Source: Ceratodon purpureus (lineage: Eukaryota > Streptophyta > Bryopsida > Pseudoditrichales > Ditrichaceae). From it: a stretch of DNA of 64,000 bases. The stretch lies in assembly GCA_014871385.1 (NCBI GenBank), contig CM026428.1, positions 12,340,041-12,404,040 of the forward strand. Reading direction: 5' to 3'. Positions 2,319 to 34,589 of this stretch are shown piece after piece. The translations under genes were made by a program, and so were the position numbers. The notes under the pieces were generated by a model. The model worked only from the letters and a program-made list of their open reading frames with translations. It searched no databases and was not told where the DNA came from. How positions within the stretch are numbered: the stretch's first letter is position 1; each line of letters begins with the position of its first letter.

Positions 2319-4304
2319 ATTAAAAACCACTACGACAAACATCCGACGAAGGTGGAGATGAGTTTGGACAAATTGCTTATGGTTGCCACTACTGAAGCAC
2401 TACCCAAAGCGAAGGCAAAATGGCTGCGAATGTGGAACGGGTCAGAGAGTTCTCGAAAGACGGTAAAGTTCCCTGCGAGTCCGTGCTCGGAGAATGTGCT
2501 CGGCCCCTGGCTTTCAAGAGCTGCCTTCTGGGCTAATGTAAGAATCTCCTGCTTAGCTTCGTAAATGTCCACCTTCATCTCTTCGTTTTATATGGGAGAT
2601 TCTACTAATATCTCTGTCTAAATCTCTTTCTTTGGGCTTATGGAATCTACAGATTGAGGAGGCCGCGGAAGCTGAGTGCTCAACTTGGCTTGAAACAATT
2701 GAAAAGGAAGAAGAGGCGTCTGAATCCGGCCCCAAGATAAGGCCCAAACGAGTCTCCATGGAGACTTACATGGAGAAATGGCGAGTGCTCCTTTGGGAGA
2801 AGGCGTACGGGGCATTCTTTACAGGTGCCAATGCTTACACAAGATCTCTTCCCTTCGCGTCGCAAGCTGGAACTGACATGGCTATGAAGAGGCTGGTCTA
2901 TAGGTACTTTAAGCGGGAGCTCATCCCTGCTGGAGTGGTAGACGCGTACCCAGCAGCCTGGGAGAGCTGGAAGGAGACCAACAACTCGGAGTATATGTTT
3001 ACAGTGAACCAAAGAAAGGTATACAACTTGCAGCACCTCAATGAGGGATGCTGGTACCTAGAGTGCCCAAAGACTATGGTCACTGAGGAAGAAAAGGCAA
3101 TCAAGGAACAGCACACGAAGAAGAAGGATGGCGAAGAGGAGGTGAGTGAGTTCGTCGACGACATCCTCCCCCCAAATTTAGACAGTCTACCCAACTCGGA
3201 TGCGCATGCTGTGTCCGCGGAGACGGGGGCTGCAGATGCAAGCGCGCGCAAACGAAAGAGAGGGGGAAATCCGAAGACGACGTCGAGGGAGACCAGTAAG
3301 GAGACACCGCAGAACAAGGAGCCATCGCAGAGGAAGAGGACGGCGAAGAAGCCAGGGAATCAGAAGGATGAGACCACAGCACCCGAGAGGGTTGGCCTCT
3401 CTCCTAGCATCGAGCACGCCGAGAAGCCAGTGGTCGCCATAGCTGCGCATATAGAGGGCTCGCAGCAGCTGATCAAGAACGAATCTGTAGCGGTATGGGC
3501 TGAGGAGGGAATGATCACTTCGTTCAAGGGGATGCCAGAGGGCTTCCATGCAGTATTTGACTGGATCAAGGGCATTACGAATAAGCGGCCAAGATACAAG
3601 AATGGCAAACTTGTTCGTCGGGGATATGCCGATCTCGTCATCGTGGATGTGCCGGAGAAGTTGAGCGTTCCAGGTGTCTCACTGCGAACAGATGAGATTC
3701 CAGATTGGAACGATCGAGACGACACTTTCCTTGCAGGAGTTTTCGGCGTCGCTGGACATATTTTGCATGACAACGGCGCTCTAATCGTAATTCACAGCGC
3801 TGACGCCGGAGCAGTAGAGAAGGAAATGGAGGAGTGGTTGAAATGGTTCCCATTTAAGATTCACAAGTCCTGGTTAGGATACAATCGCCTGCGGCTCAGC
3901 TCTTCAAAGAAGAGCGGATCCACGACAAATTGTTTTCGGGTCCACCTTCTTACCCATTCTACTCATTCGGAGTTCGAGTTTCGGACGGTACCGCCAGAGT
4001 TTTGTAGGCACGGAATCGACATCGCCGAGGACGATGTCATCCAGAATTGGACAACGATGGCAACCCAGGCCATGAGGAATCGCGTACCCTGGCGCGGTCC
4101 GAGGGAGAAGGATCAGCTCTTCATGGAGAGCATAATTCGCGCCACAACTGATGAAGGGGACGTGGTCGTGGACGTTACCGCCGCCACAGGTAGGTCTTTG
4201 GGCCGAATTGTTATCAAATTCCTTTGCCTTAGAAGAAGTACTTGCTGGTACTTACTATTCAGTGGATATGGATTGTAGGAGCATCAATCAAAGCCTGCCG
4301 AGAT
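2319..4304 (+). pseudogene. 5' part of a DNA-methylase-like gene, interrupted by hAT copy 1
   Basis: Three exons are visible: 2319-2537 (acceptor TTTTGTAG, donor GTAAGA), 2653-4189 (acceptor CTACAG, donor GTAGGT) and 4279-4304, where the mobile element begins. They join in one open frame. Upstream exons or the start codon lie in or before the repeat arrays. The product has a charged N-terminal third, a basic Lys/Arg/Thr-rich linker at about residues 190-260 (counted from 2319), and a C-terminal region like N4/N6 DNA methylases. The segment ADLVIVDVPE at about 399-408 stands where DPPY would be, and VVVDVTAATG at about 577-586 resembles the DPFxGSG cofactor motif. Both motifs are altered, so catalysis is doubtful. 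The gene continues at 19289 after the element. It may itself belong to a repeated family. Methylase-like assignment is by motif layout only. Confidence 0.62.
4297..4304. repeat. Target-site duplication, left, hAT copy 1
   Basis: GCCGAGAT immediately before the element, repeated at 19281-19288 immediately after it. Eight bases is the duplication length of hAT elements. Confidence 0.95.
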
Positions 4305-4323
4305 CATGGTTGTCATAATGGAC
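4305..4323 (+). repeat. Left terminal inverted repeat, hAT copy 1
   Basis: CATGGTTGTCATAATGGAC, exact complement of 19262-19280. Similarity continues inward with one mismatch then GAC. Confidence 0.96.
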
Positions 4324-4402
4324 GGACGGGCCAAAAAATTGTCGTGTAGTCACGTGACGAACGTGACGGACGGTTATCGGACGGACGCTTATCGGACGGG
4401 CT
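4320..4402. repeat. Left subterminal GGACGG-type repeats
   Basis: Short motifs GACGGACGG, GTGACGAAC/GTGACGGAC and two copies of TTATCGGACGG are packed directly inside the left end, together with a TCACGTGA palindrome. Similar GACGGAC/TAACGGAC motifs sit inside the right end (19200-19262). Repeated subterminal motifs are the usual transposase-binding sites of hAT elements; binding here is inference. Confidence 0.7.
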
Positions 4403-4447
4403 CCCGACCGCGAGCAAAATTACTGTCCTCACAGTTTACTACTGTTT

Positions 4448-4760
4448 ACCATGGGTGGCGCCCGTCGTCGTGTCCGCGCGCGTCTTTGCGCCTGTTCGCG
4501 CCGGTCATTTGTGGCTGTTCGCGCCCGTCGTCAGTCTCGCGCGCGCGCGGTGATCGCGCCCGATTACCCTCGCCCGACCAGGGTCGCCCGCGCCCGTCGC
4601 GCGCTTGCTGTGATCGCGCCCGTCGTCAGTCTCGCGCGCACGCGGTGATCGCGCCCGATTACCCTCGCCCAATCAGGGTCGCCCGCGCCCGTAACATGCT
4701 CGCGCCCGTAGCAGCCTGCGCGCGCCCAACCTGCTCGCGCCCACACTGTCGGCCCCGTGA
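4448..4760 (+). promoter_or_regulatory. GC block 1 (CGCGCCCG motif cluster) before the 134-aa gene
   Basis: Dense repeats of TCGCGCCCG and GCGCGCCCG, including an internal duplication of about 80 bp (GTGATCGCGCCCGATTACC occurs twice). A TATA box follows at once. Very high CpG content contrasts with the AT-rich surroundings. Likely an upstream regulatory array. Confidence 0.75.
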
Positions 4761-4761
4761 G

Positions 4762-4768
4762 TATAAAT
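4762..4768 (+). promoter_or_regulatory. TATA box of the 134-aa gene
   Basis: TATAAAT directly after GC block 1, about 128 bp before the ATG at 4890. The leader segment 4804-4850 matches the leader of the next gene (5822-5866): both contain TTGCCTTCAACAGCCC and GGGTAGCTGATTGC. Confidence 0.75.
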
Positions 4769-4889
4769 TGCCACCCTCCTCCACTGATTTCGCACCCCCC
4801 CACTTTGTGCATTTTGCCTTCAACAGCCCAAGGGTAGCTGATTGCTTAGTGCTACGGTGGGTTTCTCAACATTCGGTGTACCGTCCAAC

Positions 4890-5294
4890 ATGAATTCCAA
4901 CGCCTGCAATTGCCAACAAATCAAGTCCATTATGAGTTTAACGAATGGTGCTACTCCACCGGGCACTGCACAGCGAACGGACACAGTTATTTGGTCAAAG
5001 CTGGAGCGACTCCGTCAACTGATTGAGTTCTTCGAGGATTGGATCTCTCGCCGTGACAAATTGGTGGCCTACGCAGAGAATGGACGCCCTCTGCCTCCAA
5101 CCACTGAAGAGCAGTTGGCAACCCAAGCGACTGTCGAAGAACTTGACTGTGAGATTGGCGATCTCATCAAAGAACTGAAGAAGGAGATGGCAATACTTTG
5201 TGTCCCCACTATTGTCTCTAGTGCTCAAACGAACCATTTCGAGACGCACTTGAAAGACCTAGAGGACCGGTACCTAGAGTGCATGGCACTGTAA
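4890..5294 (+). CDS. Small charged protein of the hAT element, 134 aa, function unknown
   Basis: I chose the ATG at 4890 because it follows a TATA box and leader; an in-frame ATG at 4842 lies inside the conserved leader and is less likely. The product begins with a Cys-containing stretch (MNSNACNC) and is otherwise a charged, helix-prone chain. Two segments look amphipathic or coiled-coil: about 30-55 (WSKLERLRQLIEFFEDWI) and 85-105 (ELDCEIGDLIKELKKEM). A third charged helix precedes the C-terminus. No enzyme motif is visible. It is the first gene unit in the element and is identical in both copies. A role as a binding partner of the larger element proteins would fit, but that is a guess. Confidence 0.7.
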   Translation: MNSNACNCQQIKSIMSLTNGATPPGTAQRTDTVIWSKLERLRQLIEFFEDWISRRDKLVAYAENGRPLPPTTEEQLATQATVEELDCEIGDLIKELKKEMAILCVPTIVSSAQTNHFETHLKDLEDRYLECMAL

Positions 5295-5325
5295 TCGACA
5301 TTACAATGAAGTGATACATTTCCAA

Positions 5326-5335
5326 AATAAATAAA
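5326..5335 (+). terminator. Polyadenylation signal of the 134-aa gene
   Basis: AATAAATAAA, 32 bp after the stop codon and 70 bp before the next GC block, so each gene unit appears to have its own 3' end. Confidence 0.7.
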
Positions 5336-5404
5336 GTATTCTTTTTTAACTCTGAATTTGCAAGTCCTCTTTGGTTACTCTGATTTTTAACAGTGTTCTA
5401 GGTT

Positions 5405-5776
5405 GTGGTGGCGCCCGTCCTGGCCCACTGCTCGCGCCCGTCCATTCAGCGTTGGCGCCCGACGGTCGCGCCCGTACAGTTCGGATCGCGCCCGAAAATA
5501 TCCGCGCGCCCGCGTCGACGTCCGCGCGCGCGCCCCTTCGGTACCCGGACGACGCCCGCTCGCGCCCGACGAAGACCGGGTCGGTACCCGCTCGCGCGCG
5601 GTAAAACCCGCGCGCGCCCGTCATATACCCGCCACTGAACCGCTCGCGCCCGTTGATATCCGCGCGGGCGCGGACGGATACACGGCCGAAACCCCGCCGT
5701 CGGTGCCCGCGCGCGCCCGTCGGGTTTCCGCTCGCGCCCGTAGCAGGCTGTTCGCGCCCGTTCCCTGGCGCCCGTG
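5405..5776 (+). promoter_or_regulatory. GC block 2 before the RING-like gene
   Basis: A run of CTCGCGCCCG/CGCGCGCCCG motifs ending 2 bp before a TATA box. Same organisation as block 1. Confidence 0.75.
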
Positions 5777-5778
5777 AC

Positions 5779-5786
5779 TATAAAAG
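5779..5786 (+). promoter_or_regulatory. TATA box of the RING-like gene
   Basis: TATAAAAG directly after GC block 2. Its leader (5822-5866) matches that of the preceding gene. Confidence 0.8.
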
Positions 5787-6061
5787 GGCGATTTCCCACC
5801 TCATTTTGCACTCCCCCCCCCTTTGAGCACCTTGCCTTCAACAGCCCCCGGGTAGCTGATTGCGTGGTACTCAGGTGGGTCCCAGCACTCTGACACGTGT
5901 CCTTGTTTTTATTCTCCAGAACTCTATGGTGTCTGTGTATTACATTTGAGAATTTTGTAAATGTTTATAATTTGTAAATGTGATTGAGGTTCTGGGGTAG
6001 TCGTAGGCTTTTAATTTTGCACCTTCGGAAGACTTCGAAGAACGATCTACCTCGAGCAGAC

Positions 6062-8614
6062 ATGGAACGGCAACAACCAGCACTCACGGCGGCAGAGCAG
6101 AGGAAAAAGCAAAAGGATGCGGGACGGCCCAGGCATGGAAACCTCCAACATAAGAGGGTCCACGTCTTATTGAATCCAGCAAAGCTGGCATTCAGAGGGT
6201 GGGAAGCTGCATCGCAACCGTGGACTCTAGCAACGTGTGAACAATTCATTGAATGGTGCCACATTGGGAAGTTATTCCCGTTGCACCGTCATAAAAACAA
6301 TCGTACTTCAAACAAGGCGAACATGAGATATTGCAAGAACCGTCAGTTCGGGAGGCGGTGTTTGGAGGTGTGGCAGGTCCTATACAACCAGGCGATGAAC
6401 GAGAGGAATGAGGTTCCGCTCTTTATTTGTAGAATGGTATATGCCGAGGTAGTGCTTCATAGGCAGGTGGATTGGAGGACCATACGGTTGACTCCTAGCG
6501 TCCACCGGCGTCCACATGAGATGGCGATACCTACAGGGGTCCTAAGATTCCCAGGTGTGGACTGGGCATACTTGGATGATCCTGAGGATCAAGCGCCTGT
6601 TGAATGGAGTGACTCAGAGGAGGATAATGATTCTGATGGTACGGTAGACCGTCCCCCTCAATCACAAACAAGAGCAGCGACTAGTGCTAGAATCACACGG
6701 TTAAAAAAGAAGGATCCTGTGCTAGCTGCCTGTTTGTCGACGAGGAATCGTGCACCGCCTGCAAATCCTACTGGACCGGGTATTCCTCATCAGGCTCCTC
6801 CAGCAATCGTCGGGGGCCCGAGCAATGTTGATGTTGCTCCTCCAATATTAGTTCCACAGATTGCGGGCCCGAGCAATGTTGATGTAGCTCCTCATGTACT
6901 GAATCCACAGATTGCGGGCCCGAGCAATGTAATGGAAGATGATGACACTGGGTTTGCAGATGAGTTGGAGGCTACAATAGCCGCCGCTGATGCCCAGGGC
7001 CTGCAAGTCGATGCATTGCAGAAGGAGCTGGAAGGAAAAAATGCAATAATTTCTGAGATGGAGAAGACTATCCAGAACTTGTACGAGGAAGCTGATAGGA
7101 TGAATGAGATTATACGGAAGCAGAATGAAGAGATTTCGCAACTTAGATCTGCGAAGACTCCGACTTACATACCCGAAGCAAGCCAAGCTCCAATCCCTGG
7201 TAGCCCTGGAATGAACGAGGAAGACGTTAATGCCATCATTGAATCGGCCACGCACGGTCTCCTGGAAGATACCCCGGTCCGAGTTCCCCGTAAGCCAATC
7301 ATTCCATTTGCGTCATCAAGTCAAGTGATGCACCCCCCCCAGCGGCAAATCATGTTCGTAGATTCTCAAGAGACGGAGGACTCTTTGGGATTTCAACAGC
7401 CATCAGTACCCACTGTCTCCGAATTGCAAGCTACCAACGGGATGCTCAGAAAGTATCTGATCGAGATGAGCAGACAGTACTACCAATGGAAGATTGCATG
7501 CATCATGAACGTCGACCGTTTCAGACAGATGCGTGCTGAGTTCGAGAGGATTGACCGCGACTACCTCCAGCTTAACTCCAAGAGAGATTTCGGACTTACC
7601 TCGTGGGCAGATCCAAATGAAATGTTCCCTGACAGCCTACCGATGATTGGTAAAGCAATAGATTGGACGCGGTTGGGGTGGGAGTACAAGACCGCCATAT
7701 CCAATGAGAAGATCGCTAAAAATGCAAAGCCAAGCTTGCTCTGGCCCAATCCAGCGAAGTATGTGTTGGATGGAACCCACTGTGCAATTTGTACCAATCT
7801 ATTTGGGCCAGAGGGGGGCTGGCAATTGGGATCCTGTCAATGCATGTATCATCCACAATGCTTGATCTCGTGGGCCTTGATACGTCGGAAGTGTGCAGTA
7901 TGTAAGGCCCCCTTACACAAGCGTTTTTATGAGCAATTCGGCCTAGTGAATTGGATGCCACCGCATTGGGAGCTAAATAAGGAAAATACTCCTGACTTTT
8001 CGGACAAGTGGGGTGAAGACTTGATTTGGAATTGGCTTATGGGAATGCACCTGTCCTATATTAAACAAATGAGCGATCAGTGGAGGTGGGACCAGAAACC
8101 TGCGGAGATTGTACGGATCTGCCACGAACTCATCAAGGGCGGGACGGAGGAGGAACTCGAGGGAAGGAGGAATTTCTTCTACCAAGTGCTACATGGGTAT
8201 TGGGATATTCAAACTTGTACATTCCAGTACGGCCCCCATCCTCTTGGATTTAAGTGGAATTCCAAAGGGGAGTTGGTTGCGGATCAGATCAAGGAGTTGC
8301 ACGACATGACTGCAGAGGATTTCCGGATCGCTGAGGATGTACAAACCGCGGAATCTGAATGGGATATATTGTTCAAGAATCAAGCCGTGGATTTCCTATG
8401 TGCTGAAGTGGCTCCGGAGGTCGTAACAGTGCTCCGTCGGATGCGCAACAACAACTTCATGGAAGCAATGCTTGGAGGAGATGGCATAGCGAAGAGAACC
8501 CGTTCTGCCAAGCGGAAACTCATCGCCAACGATGGGGCAGAAAGTAGTGCAGCAGGTACCTCTCGTGCTCGACACGATGAGGGTGGATCGAGTTCCTCTG
8601 CACCGGGCACGTGA
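6062..8614 (+). CDS. Coiled-coil protein with a RING-like zinc finger, 850 aa, hAT cargo
   Basis: The start at 6062 has a good context (CAGACATGG) and opens a basic N-terminus; the frame is open for 26 more codons upstream. Order of regions: basic, Trp/Cys-rich N-terminal domain (about 1-150); acidic Ser/Asp stretch (about 185-200); Pro-rich linker with three GPSNV repeats (about 250-290); coiled coil (about 300-363); then a zinc-finger domain at about 574-614 with CAIC, SCQC, YHPQC and KCAVC. That pattern, C-x2-C..C-x-C-x2-H-x2-C-x10-C-x2-C, is a RING variant. RING fingers usually make E3 ubiquitin ligases, so it could tag host or element proteins, but this is unproven. The C-terminus has a likely nuclear signal (KRTRSAKRK). 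Copy 2 differs by two amino acids. Confidence 0.78.
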   Translation: MERQQPALTAAEQRKKQKDAGRPRHGNLQHKRVHVLLNPAKLAFRGWEAASQPWTLATCEQFIEWCHIGKLFPLHRHKNNRTSNKANMRYCKNRQFGRRCLEVWQVLYNQAMNERNEVPLFICRMVYAEVVLHRQVDWRTIRLTPSVHRRPHEMAIPTGVLRFPGVDWAYLDDPEDQAPVEWSDSEEDNDSDGTVDRPPQSQTRAATSARITRLKKKDPVLAACLSTRNRAPPANPTGPGIPHQAPPAIVGGPSNVDVAPPILVPQIAGPSNVDVAPHVLNPQIAGPSNVMEDDDTGFADELEATIAAADAQGLQVDALQKELEGKNAIISEMEKTIQNLYEEADRMNEIIRKQNEEISQLRSAKTPTYIPEASQAPIPGSPGMNEEDVNAIIESATHGLLEDTPVRVPRKPIIPFASSSQVMHPPQRQIMFVDSQETEDSLGFQQPSVPTVSELQATNGMLRKYLIEMSRQYYQWKIACIMNVDRFRQMRAEFERIDRDYLQLNSKRDFGLTSWADPNEMFPDSLPMIGKAIDWTRLGWEYKTAISNEKIAKNAKPSLLWPNPAKYVLDGTHCAICTNLFGPEGGWQLGSCQCMYHPQCLISWALIRRKCAVCKAPLHKRFYEQFGLVNWMPPHWELNKENTPDFSDKWGEDLIWNWLMGMHLSYIKQMSDQWRWDQKPAEIVRICHELIKGGTEEELEGRRNFFYQVLHGYWDIQTCTFQYGPHPLGFKWNSKGELVADQIKELHDMTAEDFRIAEDVQTAESEWDILFKNQAVDFLCAEVAPEVVTVLRRMRNNNFMEAMLGGDGIAKRTRSAKRKLIANDGAESSAAGTSRARHDEGGSSSSAPGT

Positions 8615-8940
8615 CGTCGTGGAGATCCATGAGTGAAGACCACGTTTTGTAAAAAGATATCGGAATATAAATACATGTAGATGGCATAGGGGTATGGATA
8701 GGTTTGGGATTACATTCACATGTTTAATGTTTGTTAAACTCAAACAATGGATGATAATTTGCTTTTGTAAATCATTGTCGTGATTCTCAAGACGCTTTTA
8801 TGCTCCCTTCATAATACATTGGCCTCTCTTTTTTGGATTGCCAATCATGTTATTCATTCCGCCCGTTGTCTCATCTCCTTCCATCGTATGATAAGTGTAT
8901 AAATATCTCTGTTGCACACCAAAATGTTTAATATGGACAG
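8615..8940. other. 3' flank of the RING-like gene, AT-rich, no gene seen
   Basis: Contains AATATAAATA at about 8663, a possible weak polyadenylation signal. Nothing else recognisable. Confidence 0.5.
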
Positions 8941-9138
8941 TGGATTTAAGTCACGCTAAGGGTCCCTTCACACCTGGAGGTGTGTACCACCGGCTACCGA
9001 CTGTCTAACTCCGGGCCCTCCAAAAAACCCGTTTCCGATTCACAGGGTTCGAGTTAATTTACAGGGGGTTGGGTCTCGTGATAGGCCAGAGTCGGGGATC
9101 GGGGGCTGGGGTTCTTGCTGGATTTAAGTCACGCTAAG
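8941..9138. mobile_element. Nested 158-bp insertion with 20-bp target duplications, SINE-like
   Basis: TGGATTTAAGTCACGCTAAG occurs at 8941-8960 and again at 9119-9138, exactly flanking 158 bp (8961-9118). Long direct duplications of this kind are typical of retroposed short elements made by LINE machinery. The insert contains GGTTCGAG, like the B box of tRNA-derived SINEs, but I see no convincing A box and no A-tail. It is present in the same place in copy 2, so it was inserted before the large element spread. Confidence 0.55.
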
Positions 9139-9204
9139 AGAACTTCAGTTATTGTAAGTGTATTTAACTTATGGACTGAATTTTATGTTACGTGGATTTG
9201 AACT

Positions 9205-9830
9205 CTGATCCCGCCCGCATGGTCGCGCGCGTTTGCGCGCGCCCGTAGTGTGCGTACTCGCGCGCGCGCGAACCTGCCCCAGCGAGAATAAAACCAGGAT
9301 TACGCCCGCCCGTGCGCGCGCGCACGAACTGCTCGCGCGCGTGCGGAGTGCTCGCGCCCGTCGCGCCCACAGCGCGCGAACGGATACTGAAATGTGGAAC
9401 ACCCGACGGTGTCTCCGTCGTTTGGCTCGCGCCCGATTCCGCATGCGCCCGCCCGATTTCGCGCGCGCCCGACAGTGCACGCGCGCGCGCACTGCAACCT
9501 GGGTGGGGGACTAATTTCTCTCCCCAAACTCTCTTTTCCATTTGCCCGCGCCCGTACGCGCGCGCGCGTCCTGATCGCGCCCGTCAAACCAACCGCGCGC
9601 GCGCGGTCGCGTGATTCTGAATCTCTTCCTCCCCCACAATGTCCCCCGCATTTCGTTCGCGCCCAATTTCGCGCGCGCCCGATTGCGCGCGCCCGTCAAT
9701 ACTCGCGCGCGCGCACTGCAACCATGTCATGGAAGTAATTTCTCCCCATTCAGTCCCTCGTTCCATTTGCACGCGCCCGGACGCGCTCGCGCCCATCAAT
9801 GCGGGCGCCCGTTTTGCACGCGCCCAAGCA
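9205..9830 (+). repeat. GC block 3, no gene directly after it
   Basis: The longest cluster of CGCGCGCCCG motifs. It is split by two AT-richer leader-like stretches (about 9505-9545 and 9615-9655), each before a new motif run, and may be two or three promoter units fused. Short ORFs inside are Arg/Ala/Pro runs imposed by base composition and are not genes. Confidence 0.75.
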
Positions 9831-9849
9831 CTCCAACAACATCACTCAA

Positions 9850-11450
9850 ATAAATTTTATGATTCCACCACTCTCCCATCGTATCCCCTTGTTTTTATTA
9901 AATAATCCCACACTCTCTAAATTTTTAATTGTTTCTTTTCCCCCTCTTTGAACACTACGTTTTTATTTAACTCGTAATCTCATTTTGTCTGTTCATTTTT
10001 ATAATATACTAAAGGTAGTAAATCTTCATGTCGACCCAGAGTCACATGAAGATCCTCTAAGCGCCTGAGTTCAGCTGATTTATATCCACTATTTTTTTTT
10101 TTCCCACTGTTTTTTTTTTCCCCCTTCGTTGAACACTACGCTTTTATTTAATTCCTTCTTTCATTTCGTTTGTTCAATTTTATAATTCCACCTCTCCCCC
10201 TTCTTCCCGCCTTATTTTTATTCAATACTTCTACGCTCTGTAATTTGTTTTATATTTTTTTTTCCCCTTCGTTGAACACTACGCTTTCATTTAATACCTT
10301 CTCTCATTTTGTTTGTTTATTTTTATAATTCCACCTCTAGTCTATCCTCCCGCCTTATATTTATTCAATACTCCTACGCTCTTTAATTCCTTTTTTTTTT
10401 TCCCCCTTCGTTGAACACTACGCTTTTATTTAATTCCTTCTTTCATTTCGTTTGTTCAATTTTATAATTCCACCTCTCCCCCTTCTTCCCGCCTTATTTT
10501 TATTCAATACTTCTACGCTCTGTAATTTGTTTTATATTTTTTTTTCCCCTTCGTTGAACACTACGCTTTCATTTAATACCTTCTCTCATTTTGTTTGTTT
10601 ATTTTTATAATTCCACCTCTAGTCTATCCTCCCGCCTTATATTTATTCAATACTCCTACGCTCTTTAATTCCTTTTTTTTTTTCCCCCTTCGTTGAACAC
10701 TACGCTTTTATTTAATTCCTTCTTTCATTTCGTTTGTTCAATTTTATAATTCCACCTCTCCCCCTTCTTCCCGCCTTATTTTTATTCAATACTTCTACGC
10801 TCTGTAATTTGTTTTATATTTTTTTTTCCCCTTCGTTGAACACTACGCTTTCATTTAATACCTTCTCTCATTTTGTTTGTTCATTTTTATAATTCCACCT
10901 CTAGTCTATCCTCCCGCCTTATATTTATTCAATACTCCTACGCTCTTTAATTCCTTTTTTTTTTTCCCCCTTCGTTGAACACTACGCTTTTATTTAATTC
11001 CTTCTTTCATTTTGTTTGTTCAATTTTATAATTCCACCTCTCCCCCATCTTCCCGCCTTATTTTTATTCAATACTTCTACGCTCTGTAATTTGTTTTATA
11101 TTTTTATTTCCCTTTCGTTGAACACTACGCTTTCATTTAATACCTTCTCTCATTTTGTTTGTTCATTTTTATAATTCCACCTCTAGTCTATCCTCCCGCC
11201 TTATATTTATTCAATACTCCTACGCTCTTTAAATCCCTTTTTTTTTTTTTTTCCCTCTTCGTTGAACACTATCATTCTATTTAATTCCTTCTCTCATTTC
11301 GTTTGTTCATTTTTATAATTCCACATCTCCCCCATCCTCCCGCCTTATTTTTATTCAATACTCCTATGCTATTTAATTTGTTTTTTTATTTTTTTCTTCA
11401 TTTTATAAATTTGAATGCCTATTCGTTTACTTTTTTTTTTTTTTTTTTTC
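9850..11450. repeat. T-rich tandem array, 141-bp half-units in a 282-bp higher-order repeat
   Basis: The phrase TTCGTTGAACACTACGCTTT recurs every 141 bp. Two alternating versions, with either CCACCTCTCCCCC or CCACCTCTAGTCTATCC, give a 282-bp period (units from 10120, 10402, 10684 and 10966). A diverged unit precedes at about 9940. The + strand is strongly pyrimidine-rich with long T runs. No coding potential. Confidence 0.9.
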
Positions 11451-11562
11451 TTTTGGGTACTCCAATCTCCCATACTAATGTATGGTATTTCAGTGTAGTC
11501 CAGTCTCTCCCTTAAGCTTTATTTTTTTTCTTTTTTTGAACTTACGACTTTTAAACTTCATT

Positions 11563-11812
11563 GAGCGCGCCCTGTTGGATCGCGCGCGTCCGAACGCGCC
11601 CGCAGGCGCCGGCGCGGTGGTGTCCGCAGTGGACCCACTGAACCTGCCCACGCGCGCGCGCGCACACTCGCGACCGCGCCCGCAAGTACGCGCGCGCGCC
11701 TGCTTGTTCGACGCGCGCACGCGTCGTCCCCGACCTGCGCTCGCCCTGCTCGCGCCCACCCGTTCGCGCGCGCCTGCTCGCGCCCCACGCCGCCTGCGCG
11801 CGCGCTCGGGGT
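11563..11812 (+). repeat. GC block 4, no gene directly after it
   Basis: Cluster of CGCGCGC and TCGCGCCC motifs after the T-rich array. No TATA box follows within 100 bp. The next 320 bp (11813-12130) hold no gene that I can see. Confidence 0.7.
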
Positions 11813-12149
11813 TTCAACTGGATTAGTGCAGTAACTAGTAAAATTTATCCCATATTTTAAGTTAACACTCCCTGAGGTTAGCTTAAAACGACTTACCTTC
11901 CACTAGGAGGGCAGAAACATGAGGGGCGAAATGACAACCTGCTCTAGTTCTTAGACATGTGTGAATGGAGTGGTTTGTCCTTTCGCACTGTCATGTTTCT
12001 CATTTTTTTTACTAAAATAGGGTTCCTTTTAATGTAGATGTGCACGTGTATGTAGTTCACACACTTTAATTTATTTAAATTTTATTCATTTTTCCCTCTC
12101 GTTGTTACTTCTTCTCATAGAATTGAGGTGGTCAAATCGATCCCGGCCG

Positions 12150-12475
12150 TTTGATCGCGCCCGCACCCGACCGCCCGTGCGCGCCCGCGCCTGCATTCGC
12201 CCGCCGCTCTCCGCCCGTGCGCGCCCGCGCCCGCATTCGCCCGCTGCTCTCCGCCCGCGCCCGCCCGCGCCCGCCCGCTTCGCGATCCAGCGCTCGCGCG
12301 TGCATGCGCCCGCCCCCGCCCGTCTTCCACCGCGCGCGCTATCCGCCACGCGGCCTTCAATCGCGCGCACCCACCTGCGCCAGCCCGTTCGCCTCGGAGC
12401 GCGCCCGATCTTCTGGTGCGCGCGCGCCCGTTCGGTCGCGCCCGTCCGGACAGTACTCGCCCGGTCGAGGGCGGC
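12150..12475 (+). promoter_or_regulatory. GC block 5 before the transposase gene
   Basis: CGCCCGCGCCCG-type motifs with an internal repeat of about 50 bp (CGCCCGTGCGCGCCCGCGCC twice), followed by a TATA box. Confidence 0.75.
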
Positions 12476-12477
12476 AG

Positions 12478-12485
12478 TATATAAA
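12478..12485 (+). promoter_or_regulatory. TATA box of the transposase gene
   Basis: TATATAAA, about 244 bp before the ATG. The leader shares GGCTCCTTG, GCTTGAAACT and TTGGGTGGGGGG with that of the kinase-like gene. Confidence 0.8.
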
Positions 12486-12728
12486 CTGCCCCCTTGATTT
12501 GACATCCACCTTACCTCCTTGCGTGCTTCATGTCCTGGGTCTCCTTGAGGGCTCCTTGCTTGAAACTGTTAGCTTGGGGAGACACTTGGTTTGGGTGGGG
12601 GGAATGTAAAAATTCTTCTCTCCATAAATCAATGTGTCAAGCACTTTTCAGACACACTAAGTTATTCAGATAATAATCTTTTGGTACTACTGGTCCTATT
12701 AGTCCCGATACTTCCCTAATCGTTCACT

Positions 12729-15700
12729 ATGGATCCGGATGAAGCGGTTGAACCGGTTGAAGTGGTTGCTCCGGCTAGAGCCATTCCAAGACTCGGTACG
12801 AGAGAGTGGGCACCATGGTTTTCGATCAAGTTCCAGGAAGGGTCACTGTCACATAAGGTAGCCCAATGTGTGTATTGCAGGACCAAGTTTTCGTACGTGA
12901 GGCATAGGTGCTTTCAGCATTATGGTTGGGACCAGTCCAATCTCTCGAGGGTTTGCCAAAAGGCACCTACCGTAGTGAAGAGGAAGTTTCAGTTTTGCGC
13001 TGCAAAGATTCCCGGCCCTTTGACACAGGAGGAGGTGGATGGTATCAGGCCAACGTTCCCCGCGTCAGTTCAACGTGGAACATCCAGTGCTTCCACACAC
13101 GGCACTCTGTACGGTGGATCCGAACCCTCGTATAATGATTCCGAAGAGGACCGAAATGTCTCCAGTGTTGCACCTAGTAGGGCCGGTTCGAATACCACTA
13201 GGAGCTTGCGGCAACAGGACATGAGTGAAGTACTCCAGATCGCCAAGCGGAAGGAGCTGGACATGTTGTGGTCATCCTTCTTTTACGAAGCCAACGTCGC
13301 ATTCAACGTGGCCAAGCACCCAGCATTTATTAAGGCGGTGAGCACAACCGCGGCTGCCGGATTTAACTACAGTCCTCCTTCCTATGACGCGATGCGAACA
13401 ACGCACATCAAGGAAAAAAAGAAGTTAATCAAGGCAAAGATTGATGAACGTACGAAAACCTCGACCGAGTTATACGGGGGTACCATATGCTCCGATGGCT
13501 GGGATAATGTGAATCGCCGATCGTTGATGAATGTCATGCTAGTATGTCCGGCAGGCGATGTATTTCTTGGGTCTGTTGATACGACTGGCGAGAAGAAGTC
13601 AATGGGATATATTGCCGGGGAGATGAAGAAATATATTCGAGAAATTGGCCCTCAGAATGTTGTCCAGATTTGCACGGACAATGCAGCCAACATGCTTGGC
13701 GCCATGGATAATATCCTGGAGGAGTTTCCTCACATGTACAAGGCAGGGCTGTTGTGCCCATATTCTAGATCTTCTTATGGAGGACTGGGGCAAGGAAGTC
13801 TTTGTGAAGGATTTGGTCGCCAAGGCTAAACACGTGTGTCATTACATTCGGAGACATCATGTTCCCATGGCCCTTTTCCGCAAATTTGAACCGAAGTTGT
13901 CCTTGGTGGTTCCCGCTGAAACCAGATTCGCTTGTAACTATCTGATGATAGAGCGCCTTATGGAGGTTAAATTTGCTTTGGAGCAAGTGGTCATGGCACA
14001 GGAGTGGTACGAGTATGTCGACGGTTTATTCAACCAAACCGAGGGGGTGCGTAATCATGCACGCGCAAGCGTAGTGCGTCAAACAATTCGTGACGATGGG
14101 TTCTGGCATCAGTGTGACAACTTCACGCACCTAGTGAAACCAGCCCTAGTAGCTCTCAGGACCTTCGATGGAAGCCAGCCGGCAATGGGCAAGGCATGGA
14201 TTACAATGAGCAACCTAAAGGATCACGTGTACAATCTCCGAGGATCCCCTTGCTTTTTCCCACCTGTCATGGCAACAAGGATGGAGCTGCGGTTCGACCG
14301 TAGATGGGACATGATGCATACCGATCTTCATTATGCCGCGGCGCTCTTGAACCCTTGGGTTAGAACGCATAAGGGCTTACAAGTCATAGGAGAAGCGAAG
14401 GCGGCTCTCAATCGGGTGTTTCGTCAGGTGGGTGGCCAAATGGGAATTCCATTTGGCGATCTTATGAAATCTGAGATGATCGAGTTCGACGAGGGACGTG
14501 GCCCTTACAGCCCCGAAGTGACCATCGATATCAGAGGTTTGAATCTGGAACCCCATCAATGGTGGCAGAGGATTGGAGGGGGACCATTGGCAGTCATTGC
14601 GAAGCGCATTTTATCTCAGGTCTGCTCCGCCTCATCGTGTGAACGGAATTGGAGCATGTACTCGTTTGTCCACAACAAGGTACGCAACCGCCTGGGGTTA
14701 GAGAAGTCTGAGGCCTTGGTGTACATTTATACGAATAGCAGACTCCTCCGCGAACGCCCAAAGCCCAACCCCCTCAGATGGTACGAGAACAATGCATGGT
14801 CAGAGGAGTCGGATCCGGAGAGAGATCCAAGCGAAGAGGAAGGAGATGACGACGATCATTACATACCAGTTGACCATGCAGGCAGTGGGGATGATGATGT
14901 CTGGGGACATGATAACGTCGACGTTAACACGAATGGGCAAAACGACGGTAATGGCAACGGACGCGGTGACCCTAACCGCAACAATCCGCGTGACCGCAAC
15001 AACCACGATGATAACGGTGATGAGTACGACTTCAACAATGAACCAGAATATAACCAGGGAAACCCGGACATGAACATCTATGGAGACGAATTACCCACGC
15101 TCCCGGTATTTGATGAAGCGGCTAATGCAGAAGGAAGAGGCGCTCGTGACGAAAGAGATGCTATTCCAGTCCAAATCAATCCTGAGAACAATGACGGGGT
15201 TGCAGATGATTCATCCAGCGAGGACCATCTAGGCAACGATATCCATGCTGGCGATGATGATGAGGACAATGACGAAGGGGGTGATGGAAGTCATGGACGG
15301 GCTGTAGATGGACCTCATTGGACCGGCCTCGTTAGTGGGGAGGGCAACTGGGGAACCGTTCCGGCACAAGGCGACTCAAGCTTGTTTCAAGAGATTCCTC
15401 CTGCTCACGAGAGAAGGACTGTGCACGCAATCCCCGCACAGACTGTGGCTCCATCGCAACCCACTGGTACGGGGGGTATCGAACCAGATACAATCGTGGA
15501 TGGAAGCCTGGCTCGGAGGCCCACAAGTTCAATGGGCGCAAAAATAGCTCGACTCCTTAGATCATCAGCAGCGGCGAGGCCTCCACTCAATCGAGCTAGT
15601 GGTAGTCGGCGTGGTGCCTCCACCGCCAAGCTAGTCCCCGTGGCGCCAGCTATAGACGAAGCCGTACAGAATGTGGCCCAACGTGGTGCGAAGAAGTCCA

Positions 15701-16179
15701 CAGCCAAGGTTGTTAGGAAACCACCATCACAAGAACCCCGCGGAGGAACACGAAAGTCAAGCAAAAAAACTGGACCTGATCCCCTTCCATTCTATACAGG
15801 GTACACTGAAGGGGGGCCTTCTTCTGGAACTGGGGTTGTTCGCACACGCATAAACTTTGAGGATGGCATCACAGCCATCGGTAATTCCGGAAAGGAGAGG
15901 CCTATGAAGCGCCTAGTAAGTGCCAGAGATGGCAATACGGGTGAAGTTTCCGTGCAAGTGCGCAATCTTACATCGGAGGTGGAAGGAGAGGTACAAGCTC
16001 CAGTGGTCGGAGCTCCTGAGGATGAAGGTGACAACGAGCACTCAGAGGAGGAAGACCCCGATTGCGATGAGGCGCCAGATGACGAAGATGTGATAATCCG
16101 GCACGAATTGGGGCCCACTGTAGCTCGGAAAAGACAATCTTCACGCAAGAAGAAGCCCCGCAAAGCAAGGAGAGTCTAG
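12729..16179 (+). pseudogene. hAT transposase gene with one internal +1 frameshift (about 1149 codons)
   Basis: Two overlapping frames make one protein: 12729 to about 13745, then the next frame to 16179. The total of 3451 nt is one more than a multiple of three, and the shift lies at ACAAGGCAGGG (about 13738-13748), where family resemblance passes from PHMYK to QGCCAHILDLL. Visible parts: a BED-like finger with C47, C50, H64 and C76; the DUF659 region (about 225-340) with SDGWDN and TDNAAN, carrying two likely catalytic Asp; and the C-terminal hAT dimerisation motif SSCERNWS near 14635-14660, whose Glu probably completes the acidic triad. A tail of about 470 residues follows: acidic, Asn/Asp-rich, ending in a basic cluster (SRKKKPRKARR). 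Such a tail is unusual for hAT. The same frameshift is in copy 2. Confidence 0.88.
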
Positions 16180-16514
16180 ACTGTGGTCACCTTTTTAGCG
16201 CATGAAGTAGCAGTAAATCTAAACATACAATCTACCGGCTAAAAACCAAAAAAAATACTACGTTATTCTTAATGTTTTTTTTTTTTTTTTTGGTAGCACC
16301 TTCTTATTACGTAGACTTATACTGTTACTTAGAGTCAACCTAGTTCATTATCTCACACTCGAAGGAATTGTATGGTTGTGCTCTGTATTAATTTTTGTGC
16401 GCTAAATGCGGTTAATATATCTCCATTGAGTAATTTCGCAGTGAATTTTTTTGGTATTCTGTTCAATATACGAGTATACCGTAACCGAACCTGTACAGTG
16501 TATGTAACGCTGCC
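16180..16514. other. AT-rich spacer after the transposase gene
   Basis: Contains a T18 run near 16275-16292 and no gene that I can support. Confidence 0.5.
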
Positions 16515-16885
16515 TATCCGGGCGCGTGCACTGGGACGGGCGCGTACAGGAAGGCGCCCGCAGGGGCACGGTGTCGGGCGCGTGCGCGGGGACAGGCGCG
16601 TGCACGGTCACGGGCGCGTACAGCGTGCTCGCGCGTACAGATAACCGGCGCGCGCAGGGGTACGGGCGCGAGCACGCGGGCACGGGCGCCTGCGGCGTCG
16701 GGCGCGCCCGATGTGGGCTGACGGGCGCGCACGTGGGCACGGGCGCGCAAACGCGGGCACGGGCGCGGGCAGTCCCCCGCGCGAACGCGGTGGACGGGCG
16801 CGTGCAGACGGGCGCATGCGGACGGGCGCGTGTGGAGGCCCTGTGCGCGCGCGTGTACGCGCTTACGGGCGCGAACAGCCGAGGG
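16515..16885 (-). promoter_or_regulatory. GC block 6 before the kinase-like gene, motif in reverse orientation
   Basis: Here the + strand reads CGGGCGCG (GGGCGCGTGCA, GGGCACGGGCGCG), the complement of the motif in all other blocks, yet the TATA box and gene that follow are still on the + strand. So the motif can act, if it acts, in either orientation. Confidence 0.75.
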
Positions 16886-16888
16886 GAG

Positions 16889-16896
16889 CATAAAAG
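16889..16896 (+). promoter_or_regulatory. TATA box of the kinase-like gene
   Basis: CATAAAAG just after GC block 6, about 180 bp before the ATG at 17073. Confidence 0.75.
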
Positions 16897-17072
16897 GCGC
16901 CCCTTAACCCTTATTTTCTACTTTTCAAAGTCTCCTCTTCCAGGTGGCTCCTTGTCCTAGCCCGTGACTCCACGTGCTCTGCTTGGAACTGCAGGAAGTG
17001 GGAGCAACCAGATTGGGTGGGGGGGATCTTTTGGTTTTTTTTTTATTGTGTATCCAGTTCATTATTCCAACT

Positions 17073-18641
17073 ATGTCGGTCTCTCGCGGATCCGGGAAAC
17101 GCCCTGCCTACGTAGATCTTGATGCTCCTGTAGAGGATGTGATGGCAACCTCCACAGCACCGACCGTTACAGGCTCAAACCCGTCATCAAGCTCATCGGG
17201 AAAGAAGAACCGGAAGTCGGCGAGTGAGAGGGACCCGGACTACCCACCTCCTCGGTACCAGGAATTCGTTAGAGAGCTAGCATTGGAGTGGTACGGATGT
17301 CGGAAACGGGAGATGATTACCCGTACGTACGTTGAGAAGGGGGAGACCGGAATTAAGGACTTAAAGACCCATTTGGAAGAGTATTTGTGGAAGAAGCTGG
17401 ACCTTTCCGAGAGATATAATGATTGTATTCATTACTTTCATTTCCCTAAGTGGATGGAGCAACAAATAACAACAAACACTACGAACATTGTGCATGTCTT
17501 TGAGTGTGTCAACAAGAAGCCAAAGGAGGGCTACTCGCGGGCGCAGAAGGAAGAGATAGAGAAGCTCAAATATGTCCAGGATTCGTGCGCGAGATTCTCG
17601 AATAATAAGACGAGGGCGAGGCCATGGCTTGAAGCTGGACTGAAAAGCGCAATGGAGAAGTACTTGTGGGGAGCAGTGGTTGGAGTTCCGAGAGGGGTCA
17701 AGTTGGTTCCGCTGTCAGGCACAAAGGAAGGCGGTTATGGTAAAGTCCGAAAATTATGTATTGTTGGCATGCAAACCATACCTGAGACTTGTGTCTTTGC
17801 GGGGAAGACGTCCAAGGCTCCTGACGAGACCCAGAAGCGGCACGAGACATCAATAGAAGCCATGGTTTGCAGAATTGACCATCCCGGCGTTATTAAGTTT
17901 TTTGCGGTCAATGACTGGACGATGGAAGCCTACACGCTTTGGTGGAATGGGGATTGCCTGCAGAATTTTCTGCACAAGTTCAATTCAAATATCGGTGAGG
18001 GTACTCAGAACCGTAACATCCACAAGCAGATCGATATGCCCATGGAAACACGTGACCGTGTTAAGGCCTTCCGCACCCATAGGGCCAAGCTAGCTTGGGC
18101 ACTCATCTGTATTATGGACCGGGTGCATAAGGGGTATTTGCAGCATAATGACATCTCCCCGGGAAATGTCTTGCTTCACTTCCCAGAGGATAAAGTGAGC
18201 GAGGTTTACATTGGAGTATGCGACTGGGGCCTTGCAAGTCGAGTGTGTGAGACAACTCCTTCAAGGTACGGTTACCCAAGTGATGAGGCGCGTACGGAAG
18301 CCTTCAAGGAACGTGGTAGTTTTGTGGCTCCGGAGTTGTGGTACACTTATGGTAAGCGAAATTCGGAGACCTCTTATGAAACTGTAAGGAGGAGACATCT
18401 ATATACGCAGGCTGCCGATGCGTACTCGGTTGGAGTGGTAGCAAATAAGATTTGGGATAACGAGGACGACTTCGACCTTTTCAAGGATACAGCGGGGAAG
18501 GCTAGATTTGCGGTGGCGTTGAAGGAGCTCACAAATCCCGATCCCAAGAGCCGCTCCACCTTGCGTTTGGTCCACGCTACTCTAACAGCCCCTCCCTACA
18601 ATTTCCAAATCCCAGAGTGTAGTTATCGCAAACATATTTAG
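17073..18641 (+). CDS. Protein kinase-like protein, 522 aa, hAT cargo
   Basis: The start at 17073 was chosen over an in-frame ATG at 16974, which lies in the leader. The N-terminal 210 residues are unrelated to known domains that I recognise. The kinase fold follows: a Gly loop reduced to GGYGKV (220-225); FAGK with K245 as the probable ATP-binding Lys; catalytic loop HNDISPGN (H358, D360, N365) in place of HRD; DWG (384-386) in place of DFG; and APE at 419-421. The key Lys, two Asp and Asn are present, so it may be active. HxDISxxN-type loops also occur in fungal FunK1 kinases, but kinship is not shown. A possible role is phosphorylation of the transposase or of host factors; this is inference. 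Copy 2 differs by one residue (C229 to R) and one silent change. Confidence 0.8.
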   Translation: MSVSRGSGKRPAYVDLDAPVEDVMATSTAPTVTGSNPSSSSSGKKNRKSASERDPDYPPPRYQEFVRELALEWYGCRKREMITRTYVEKGETGIKDLKTHLEEYLWKKLDLSERYNDCIHYFHFPKWMEQQITTNTTNIVHVFECVNKKPKEGYSRAQKEEIEKLKYVQDSCARFSNNKTRARPWLEAGLKSAMEKYLWGAVVGVPRGVKLVPLSGTKEGGYGKVRKLCIVGMQTIPETCVFAGKTSKAPDETQKRHETSIEAMVCRIDHPGVIKFFAVNDWTMEAYTLWWNGDCLQNFLHKFNSNIGEGTQNRNIHKQIDMPMETRDRVKAFRTHRAKLAWALICIMDRVHKGYLQHNDISPGNVLLHFPEDKVSEVYIGVCDWGLASRVCETTPSRYGYPSDEARTEAFKERGSFVAPELWYTYGKRNSETSYETVRRRHLYTQAADAYSVGVVANKIWDNEDDFDLFKDTAGKARFAVALKELTNPDPKSRSTLRLVHATLTAPPYNFQIPECSYRKHI

Positions 18642-18740
18642 AAGTAGGCAAGTAGTGACAACAATGTGATATTCTCAGTTCTCCATAAGAGGGGACATTT
18701 TTTGTAAGTGGTTTACTGCCACAATTTTGCAAAACTTTTC

Positions 18741-18746
18741 AATAAA
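18741..18746 (+). terminator. Polyadenylation signal of the kinase-like gene
   Basis: AATAAA 100 bp after the stop codon. Confidence 0.7.
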
Positions 18747-18837
18747 CATTGCACTTCCCAATTGCCCTCTTCTGAAATACATGCCCTCTCTTGTCATTTA
18801 TGATTTTGCCCGATGTCGCTCTTTCCCTACTAACCTG

Positions 18838-19142
18838 CAGCGCTCGCGCCCGACCGCCGGCGCCCGATGCAGCGCACTCGCCCAAATGCACGCGCCCGAT
18901 CCAGGCTCGCGCCCACATGACCGCGCCCGATAAGTGTGCTCGCGACCGTCAACTGGATCGCGCCCGCAGCGACGCTCGCGCCCGTTCGCAGGCGCACGCG
19001 CGCGACCGGAACGACGCACGCGCCCTCGCTCTCGCGCACTCCAGCGCGCGCCCGTGACATCGCGTTCGCGCGGACGCTCGCGCCCGTCGTCCTGCTCGCG
19101 CCCACCCGCTCGCGCCCGTAATCGCGCTCGCGCCCGCACTAA
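18838..19142 (+). repeat. GC block 7, near the right end of copy 1
   Basis: CTCGCGCCCG and TCGCGCCCGAT motifs, same orientation as block 1. With block 1, such a cluster lies 120-140 bp inside each end of the element, a position that suits transposase binding. Confidence 0.75.
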
Positions 19143-19261
19143 TTCAGCGCTAGGTAAATTCGTTTTACCCTTACAGTGAGTCAACTGGTCAACGCCCTTA
19201 TGTGACGGACACGGGGGTCTGTCTTGTCACCATGACGGACTAACGGACTAACGGACGGTCG

Positions 19262-19280
19262 GTCCATTATGACAACCATG
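19262..19280 (-). repeat. Right terminal inverted repeat, hAT copy 1
   Basis: Complement of the left end (4305-4323), 19 of 19 bases. Just inside it are two TAACGGAC repeats and GACGGAC motifs. Confidence 0.96.
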
Positions 19281-19837
19281 GCCGAGATACTGGGCGCCAT
19301 ATCGTTGCATTAGAGGCAGACAAAGACATCTTCAACGAGGTACTTATGAAGTTGGATCCTCCAGCACCATCTAATCAAGCATTAGTACAGCCTGCCACAG
19401 CAGAGAACACCTCCACCGAAGAGACCACCACAGCGGACGCGGAGCCTCCTATCTCCACAAACTCATACATTGCCCGAAAGAGATTGAAGAAACTCGCGCT
19501 TGAGTAAGTGAGTATGGTCTGATTAATTCCTTCGTATCCTCTCATAATCTCACTATTGCTCAAGTTGACTGAAAGTCTCTAATTGCAATCTATACGCAGC
19601 AATCCGAATGTGCAACCCCATTCCGGCATACTCATGGAGTGTAGTCGGAAGATTATTCCGTCGCCAGTGATGCATCGAATTCCTGTTTACGCGGAGAACC
19701 AAGCGCAGGTGTTGAGCACACTGGACTCACCACCATCTCCAATAGCGAGGACCAAACTATTCGACGGACGAGCTCAAAGGTTCCTTGATATTGAGGCAGA
19801 AGTAGAACATACTTGCATCTCTGACCAGTCGTGCTAG
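19281..19837 (+). pseudogene. 3' part of the interrupted DNA-methylase-like gene
   Basis: GCCGAGAT at 19281-19288 is the target duplication. From 19289 the frame of the exon broken at 4304 resumes exactly: ..KACRD + TGRHIVALEAD.., a segment like the end of the cofactor-binding motif of DNA methylases. The exon ends at 19503 (donor GTAAGT) and the last exon runs 19600-19837 (acceptor ACGCAG), ending in a stop. All exons seen (219, 1537, 26, 215 and 238 nt) sum to 745 codons with no break. The insertion therefore disrupts an otherwise open gene. Confidence 0.7.
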
Positions 19838-20234
19838 GCTTGGGAAAGAACTTTATGGAATGTATTTTATTTCTTACTTGACTCGTTTATATATATGTCT
19901 TGTCGGCAAAATATGTGCATTTCAATATCTATATTCCCAACTATCACCTAATAGCGTCCCTTCATATCTGCCATTATGATGGGTCGCACCTTTCTCATGC
20001 AACTCTTGAATATAAACCTCTTCCCTTCAAGTACCACTTTTCGTGGGTATTCTTGTATCTAAAAGGTATAACCGTTGCTGAAAACTTGAAAAGGCATTAT
20101 GAGTGATATGGAAGGAAAAGCAAAATGCACAACTTTGATTGTCAACATTTGAGAAGTTACAATTCTGTTGTCGTAATTATTAAGCTCGTAATCTTCAGTC
20201 AAAGTTCAATCAAACATCGCTTTTATTTTATATT
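19838..20234. other. AT-rich intergenic DNA, nothing recognised
   Basis: No repeat, palindrome or ORF of note. Confidence 0.5.
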
Positions 20235-21267: not shown

Positions 21268-21321
21268 ATATTTTCTGAAGATGAGAGGCATTTCTACTAT
21301 AGTAACAAACGGAAAAAAGGA

Positions 21322-21700
21322 AAAAGGATAACCAATTCATATCATTGTGATTCTTCCCATTTTATAGTCGTATTCGAAACACTACAAATTTGAGTTTGTA
21401 AATACGAATGCCAATTATTAAGACATAAGAGCCAATATTCGGCAAATCAGACGCGCCCAGCTGAGACCACGGCAGCTAAGATCCCGCCAGCTCATACCCG
21501 GGATGCTGAGACCACGGCTGCTAAGATTTATGCAGCTCATGCCCGGGATGCTAAGCCCACGGCAGCGAAGATCCCGTTAGCTCATACCCGGGCTGCAGAG
21601 ACCCCGGATGCTGCAACCCGCACCGCAATATTATTAACCCCGGCGGGTACATGGAATGCTCATAGAGGGCTATCGGATCCGACAGTGGAATTCTAGCTTC
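21322..21700 (+). promoter_or_regulatory. Promoter-region repeat, copy A
   Basis: About 370 bp matching 25658-26030 with few differences, starting at AAAAGGATAACCAATTC. It contains AACCCCGGCGGGTACATGG and an imperfect copy of the palindrome (TATCGGATCCGACA, 21671-21684). It stands upstream of a TATA box and a minisatellite-filled intron in both places. Confidence 0.85.
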
Positions 21701-21850: not shown

Positions 21851-21865
21851 TCCGTGGACCCTTAC

Positions 21866-21875
21866 TATATATAAG
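21866..21875 (+). promoter_or_regulatory. TATA box of gene A
   Basis: TATATATAAG followed by a leader that is nearly identical in gene B (26704-26713). A 5' splice site (TTCG/GTGAGT) follows at 21919/21920. Confidence 0.8.
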
Positions 21876-34570: not shown

Positions 34571-34589
34571 CTCCAACAACATCACTCAA

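Follow-up and report, generated by a model that had tools for sequence, protein, structure and literature searches.

A probable lineage of long, multi-gene hAT transposons with RING-type and kinase genes in the moss Ceratodon purpureus

The hAT elements are textbook minimal transposons with a single gene, and movement by cut-and-paste through the transposase is established for the superfamily. Starships are organized differently, as they combine a tyrosine-recombinase captain (DUF3435) with variable host cargo. Here we describe a hAT element of about 15 kb in a 64,000-nucleotide stretch of the genome of the moss Ceratodon purpureus (contig CM026428.1, positions 12,340,041 to 12,404,040 of the forward strand), which in its full length is referred to as the window. 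Besides its transposase, this element encodes a RING-type protein, a protein kinase and a small acidic protein. Several described systems resemble it in part. MarorhAT-10 of Marasmius oreades is an autonomous DUF659-type hAT of 3,396 bp (PMC9674265), and a fungal DUF659 hAT, about 9.5 kb long, contains copies of histone H3 that repeat-induced point mutation (RIP) has inactivated (PMC6710886), each as given in the portion of the source available to us. For the VANDAL elements of Arabidopsis, the available portions of two reports describe an anti-silencing protein, VANC, whose binding sites are short tandem motifs in the non-coding parts of these elements (PMC5735166, PMC10398659).

Our analysis indicates that the window element probably belongs to a lineage of long multi-gene DUF659-type hAT transposons that carry accessory proteins. 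The first copy occupies 4305-19280 on the + strand (14,976 bp) and is bounded by perfect 17-bp terminal inverted repeats (TIRs), with CATGGTTGTCATAATGG, which recurs across the genome, at 4305-4321 on the + strand and its reverse complement at 19264-19280 on the - strand. These are flanked by an 8-bp target-site duplication (TSD), GCCGAGAT, at 4297-4304 and 19281-19288. A scan of window positions 3001-22000 for a 14-bp TIR with an 8-bp TSD recovered copy 1 at zero mismatches, the runner-up having three. When the flanks are joined with a single TSD, a reading frame continues over the junction and is 57% identical over 30 residues to a relative elsewhere; because excision of the element with one TSD copy restores this frame, copy 1 is a true insertion. 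Copy 2 lies at 29045-44019 on the + strand (14,975 bp), has a different TSD (CCCTACAG at 29037-29044 and 44020-44027), carries the same four genes and is 99.93% identical to copy 1 over 14,979 aligned bases. An earlier note on the window, made from its letters, had proposed a 15-kb hAT with hAT-type ends, an 8-bp duplication and a transposase, present in two copies with corresponding boundaries; TIRs, TSD, Pfam matches and the empty site confirm the element, and the second copy is as described.

Copy 1 contains four genes, all on the + strand, in the order 134-residue protein, RING-type protein, transposase and kinase. The first (4890-5294) encodes an acidic protein with a pI of 4.8 for which a Pfam scan gave no family match. 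The second (6062-8614) encodes an 850-residue protein with a conserved N-terminal domain at about residues 21-179 and with RING cysteine motifs at residues 574 (CAIC) and 611 (CAVC). The fourth (17073-18641) encodes a 522-residue kinase that matches Pkinase narrowly above the Pfam cut-off (1.2e-7, 31.9 bits against 31.7) and retains the catalytic motifs GGYG 220, K245, HND 358, DWG 384 and APE 419. Its catalytic loop reads HND instead of HRD, that is, HxD without the arginine, and both HND and DWG are invariant in comparison with the related family B described below. Against the PDB, the kinase profile matched generic Ser/Thr kinases (E about 1e-4); a PHROGs scan returned a weak serine-threonine kinase family and nothing more, and an NCBIfam scan gave no match above the curated cut-off.

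The transposase gene (12729-16179, + strand) is frameshifted in both window copies, where it is split alike into frames of 366 and 840 residues, and forms a single frame of 1148 residues in 9 of the 10 other copies that were fetched. In a sister copy the protein matches DUF659 (PF04937, 2.9e-34) and Dimer_Tnp_hAT (PF05699, 2.4e-5), the latter being the hATC domain, and against the PDB it gives a weak match to Hermes (E 0.08). Motifs recognized by eye are SDGW at residue 255, CTDNA at 315 and CERNW at 636, together with CVYC at residue 47 and a nearby histidine at the N-terminus, where Pfam gave no BED match. Thus the element has the features of a hAT: an 8-bp TSD, short TIRs and a transposase with a DUF659/RNase-H-like core and hATC. 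The unit is presumably cut and pasted by this transposase, given the mechanism of the superfamily and the structure of the insertion. We considered an intron as the cause of the split gene and rejected it, a frameshift in the window pair being likelier since nine of the ten other copies have one continuous frame. Because copies 1 and 2 differ in their TSDs and flanks, at least one of them was probably mobile after the frameshift, through transposase made elsewhere; the window pair probably moved in trans. Gene conversion is an alternative account of the shared frameshift. The description of the genes as intact in the earlier note fails for the transposase of both window copies.

The element is repeated throughout the genome (362.5 Mb in 151 contigs). 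At up to one mismatch the TIR has 414 matches and at up to two mismatches the 28-bp left end has 228, with none for either reversed pattern. The ends thus recur outside the window, a check that the earlier note had proposed, and these counts rule out a two-copy oddity confined to it. The first 100 places were listed for each end, and the pairing figures hold among these matches. Within their common range, 38 of 47 left ends are paired with an opposite TIR and nine are unpaired; 29 of the pairs span 12,973-16,433 bp, nine span 26.5-61.7 kb and none is shorter, so that short copies holding the transposase only, which were sought, do not occur among the 38. A reading of the pairs of 26.5-62 kb as versions with larger cargo was rejected, as the gene positions, from which rather than from the interiors they were judged, fit nested insertions. 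In the listed range, 34 of 35 kinase copies lie 588-738 bp from a right-end TIR, and the remaining one, which belongs to a long pair, is at 18.5 kb. Seen from the other side, 55 of 85 exact left ends have a scored kinase within 60 kb downstream, 46 at 11-15 kb, and 30 have none scored.

Ten further copies, selected for having both ends 14-16 kb apart, were fetched and compared with the window pair. All 12 have the perfect 17-bp TIR through which they were selected, and their TSDs are identical 8-mers in nine cases, differ by one mismatch in two and are absent in one. Gene order, spacing and ends are uniform in 12 of 12. This bears on the idea of a chance neighbourhood, in which independent transposons or host genes would happen to share the space between a pair of hAT ends. 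The genome is rich in nested repeats, the nine long pairs being read in that way, yet the uniformity of the 12 copies refutes such an origin for the window family, and we consider it practically negligible. The claim that RING protein, kinase and small protein travel as one unit was therefore upheld, by these copies and by the kinases beside the right end. Whether the cargo also occurs elsewhere as ordinary host genes, which the earlier note had raised, is answered in part: the 34 of 35 element-bound kinases are drawn from best-scoring copies only, and a diverged host paralogue could exist.

Some variation among the copies was also seen. Of the 83 scored kinase copies, 25 lie on C6, the presumed sex chromosome. 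Among the matches listed, 12 of 15 left ends with one mismatch have CAGGGTTG in place of CATGGTTG, mostly on C6, which suggests a separate, perhaps older, subfamily. In addition, 9 of 53 scored RING copies (for example at C2:1823953 and C3:21945673) carry a 17-residue insertion at residues 265-290, a possible subfamily marker.

The same gene combination is found with distantly related transposases. A genome search for DUF659, in which 150 of 903 candidates were scored, yielded two further families, A and B, selected for many copies with equal DUF659 score. Their transposases are 38% (A) and 32% (B) identical to that of the window and 29% identical to each other. Stretches of both families encode relatives of the RING protein, and that of family B reaches 31.7 bits for zf-RING_2, above the cut-off of 27.3; a second family-B protein resembles the RING protein in its N-terminal domain only. 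Kinase relatives are present as well, in family B at 28% identity over 404 residues (E 7e-38) and in family A, just downstream of the RING gene of another copy, at 42% over 187 residues (E 4e-43, Pkinase 41.4 bits). The arrangement is repeated across loci. The family-B kinase lies downstream of 35 of 60 B-type DUF659 loci, 31 of them at 11.2-13.4 kb, and the family-B RING gene adjoins a B-type DUF659 in 31 of 44 places, at 2.8-2.9 kb, while the family-A RING gene is downstream of 62 of 77 A-type DUF659 loci, 52 of them at 7-10 kb. As judged by sequence comparison, transposase, RING protein and kinase are a conserved core common to three diverged DUF659-hAT families. Because two distantly related families share this trio, the RING protein and kinase look like working transposon parts and not accidental luggage. 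A relative of the 134-residue protein was sought in the family A and B stretches and none was found.

Two further observations concern these families. RING N-terminal domains with 52-59% identity to family A, in frames of up to 944 residues, were seen at C87, C68, C3:24616760, C3:24684266, C3:24889113 and C144; this group is probably another family of the same lineage. At C8:3701234-3731913, a pair of 92-bp inverted repeats, 88% identical and about 30.7 kb apart, surrounds a family-B copy. It was rejected as the family-B boundary, as its 24-bp core has 164 genome matches, not one of which is spaced from the family-B copies on C1 as a terminus would be, and it delimits some other large repeat.

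Most scored gene copies are uninterrupted, though only the best-scoring genome places were scored and the fractions lean towards intact copies: of 83 kinase places, 71 are complete and free of stops, 11 contain stops and one is split, while stops are absent from 46 of 53 RING places and from 37 of the best 40 transposase places. In the 12 fetched copies, the small protein is open in 12, the RING gene in 10, the kinase in nine and the transposase, as one 1148-residue frame, in nine. Near-identical kinase and RING copies are found on different chromosomes. Pooled over uninterrupted copies, the ratio of nonsynonymous to synonymous polymorphism (pN/pS) is 0.22 for the kinase, 0.28 for the small protein, 0.49 for the RING protein and 0.50 for the transposase. 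The segregating nonsynonymous and synonymous changes number 11 and 12 in the kinase (p 0.006), 56 and 34 in the RING gene (p 0.006) and 3 and 5 in the 134-residue protein (p 0.035). The kinase and RING codons look to be under constraint. We infer an accessory role for the RING protein and kinase, which would be retained for raising the element's own transmission.

The state of the genes and their recurrence make passive capture, in which host genes became enclosed by the ends and were multiplied along with the element while doing nothing for it, very improbable. Capture of genes by a hAT is documented, as the available part of one report shows for the DUF659 hAT with its RIP-inactivated histone H3 copies (PMC6710886). 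The moss genes, however, are mostly uninterrupted, constrained and recurring in three families whose transposases share 29-38% identity, and passive capture would demand either one ancient capture that was then kept or the repeated capture of the same pair. More credible, if still improbable, is a role of the accessory genes outside transposition and silencing, in which they would serve the host or form an addiction pair, acting, for example, in defence or by killing cells from which the element has been lost. Such roles would be plausible for a kinase and a ligase-type protein, and selection on the accessory genes is seen without a known target. This proposal is opposed by the confinement of 34 of 35 placed kinase copies to elements and by the near-identical copies on different chromosomes, which suit selection through copying, and no toxin-like gene was recognized in Pfam scans of the element proteins. 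We give still less credence to a virus-like origin, from a DNA virus or virus-like element that integrates through a hAT transposase. Teratorn is an example of a virus-like element that uses a transposase in this way, and large DNA viruses commonly encode kinases and RING proteins. Nonetheless, Pfam scans of five element reading frames contained no capsid, polymerase or packaging gene, and an IMG/VR scan with two kinase peptide patterns gave 45 candidate stretches and no relative, which is weak evidence in the same direction.

The non-coding DNA of the element suggests how the accessory proteins might act. The motif CGCGCCCG is repeated on the + strand in a GC-rich block at 4420-4770 and in further blocks at 5400-5790, 9210-9850, 11560-11820, 12140-12490 and 18830-19140, and mostly in reverse orientation in a block at 16510-16890. 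It occurs 60 times in 6,998 bp of non-coding DNA, never in 7,978 bp of coding DNA and twice in 34 kb outside the element; dinucleotide shuffles reached at most 5 in the non-coding DNA and at most 12 in the GC-rich blocks alone. Family B has arrays of its own, with CGGCCGTC 54 times and GGACGGCC 58 times in non-coding DNA and neither in coding DNA. Cross-counts between the window family and family B are 0-1, so the motifs are hardly shared. The element also contains an internal tandem array at 10110-11395 on the + strand, T/C-rich and with a period of 282 (two units of about 143), which falls in the region of greatest length difference among the copies.

By analogy with VANC, we consider the most likely mechanism to be an element-specific counter-silencing or activation, a proposal to which we assign slightly less than even confidence. 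In this scheme the RING protein would be directed by its conserved N-terminal domain to the family-specific GC-rich arrays in non-coding DNA, DNA binding by that domain being a guess. Ubiquitylation and phosphorylation at the arrays would displace silencing factors, and with these displaced the element genes would stay on. A broader and more doubtful extension is that the elements represent an ancient, widespread plant hAT lineage encoding sequence-guided chromatin-modifying machinery, in which a RING-type ligase and a kinase might read the family motif arrays and reactivate the element. If true, this would be a transposon-encoded counter-silencing system unrelated to VANC.

The accessory proteins could instead act on the transposase itself, with the kinase phosphorylating its acidic C-terminal tail and the RING protein ubiquitylating it, thereby setting its dose, timing or localisation. 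An acidic tail follows hATC in all three transposases examined (448, 391 and 314 residues, D+E 0.19 each), and a fixed trio in three families suits a model in which the two proteins are partners of the transposase. However, the tails are hardly alignable across families, save for a short RP.K.LV..RD stretch common to the window family and family A, and control of the transposase leaves the motif arrays unexplained; we regard it as the next likeliest mechanism, though rather unlikely. We prefer counter-silencing or activation because the family-specific arrays are reminiscent of the sequences that VANC targets.

Several results weigh against the interpretation of these elements as a lineage with conserved, functional accessory proteins. 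The window RING protein scores below the zf-RING_2 cut-off that its family-B relative passes (8e-4, 20.1 bits), and its N-terminal domain had no match in the PDB at E <= 1. Constraint on the transposase was not significant (40 nonsynonymous and 19 synonymous changes, p 0.17), and all constraint tests excluded interrupted copies and treated sites as independent. The family-A kinase was read from a single copy, with its sequence divided between two frames. Of the DUF659 loci, 25 of 60 in the B-type group and 15 of 77 in the A-type group have no scored partner, and a scored DUF659 locus is likewise missing beside 13 of the 44 family-B RING places. These loci may be real losses, or their partner copies may fall below the scored set; at least two of the 15 A-type loci apparently lie within window-family copies. 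For families A and B, a search for the ends found none, and the boundaries of both are placed by spacing alone. Lastly, none of five k-mers tried in family A revealed a comparable motif array.

Other features of the window lie around the two copies. The gene interrupted by copy 1 (3001-4304 and 19289-19800) is a distant relative of N6/N4 DNA methyltransferases. A relative of this gene stands upstream of a family-A transposase (L029:4376-5427), where Pfam N6_N4_Mtase gives 23.1 bits, below the cut-off of 26.7. The interrupted gene may be repetitive in its own right, and perhaps mobile. Beside copy 1 are two tandem arrays with periods of 150 and 149, at 1-985 and 1135-2264. Between the copies, two arrays with related units and a period of 96-97 occupy 22006-24292 and 26823-27871. 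A malectin-domain receptor-like kinase gene at 52245-55027 on the minus strand (Pfam PK_Tyr_Ser-Thr 1.5e-47, Malectin_like) is apparently an ordinary host gene.

The occurrence of the trio in three diverged hAT families would mean that some hATs are multi-gene parasites with their own regulatory equipment. Given many near-identical copies and a cultivable host, the manipulation of ubiquitin and kinase signalling or of silencing by a transposon becomes directly testable in Ceratodon purpureus. The finding also matters for annotation: dozens of this genome's kinase and RING-like genes belong to transposons. A literature search, with thin coverage of subscription journals and preprints, recovered no description of a hAT that encodes both a RING protein and a kinase.

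Among known systems, the moss element shares with DUF659 hATs such as MarorhAT-10 the 8-bp TSD, the short TIRs and the DUF659 and hATC transposase. It differs from MarorhAT-10, which in the available part of its description has about 3.4 kb and one recognized gene, in its length of about 14-16 kb, its four genes, its long acidic transposase tail and its motif arrays. With the fungal H3-carrying element, likewise as far as the available account goes, it has in common a DUF659 hAT with a non-transposase gene; there the captured copies are inactivated, whereas the moss genes are mostly intact, constrained and common to three families. The earlier note had likened the element to Starships, and to the extent these are covered in the sources at hand, both are large eukaryotic elements with several genes beyond a recombinase. 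The comparison does not hold further, as the moss element has a hAT transposase, a length of 15 kb and a fixed gene set common to three diverged families, and a tyrosine-recombinase captain domain is absent among the Pfam matches of its proteins. The Burro giant Gypsy elements of planarians are also oversized, and their RING and ubiquitination-related domains have been proposed to interfere with the host, but they are long terminal repeat (LTR) retrotransposons, and the accessible text of the giant-transposon review mentions no kinase companion, the words 'hAT' and 'kinase' each occurring zero times in it (PMC6431247). The VANDAL/Hiun Mutator-like elements (MULEs), in the accessible parts of their reports, are, like the moss elements, DNA transposons with several genes; they encode accessory proteins, and their non-coding DNA holds arrays of short motifs specific to each family (PMC5735166, PMC10398659, PMC6446971). 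Arrays of the VANDAL type are found in two of the three moss families, those of the window and B, and unlike VANDAL elements the moss transposons combine them with a hAT rather than a Mutator transposase and with a kinase and a RING protein instead of VANB and VANC.

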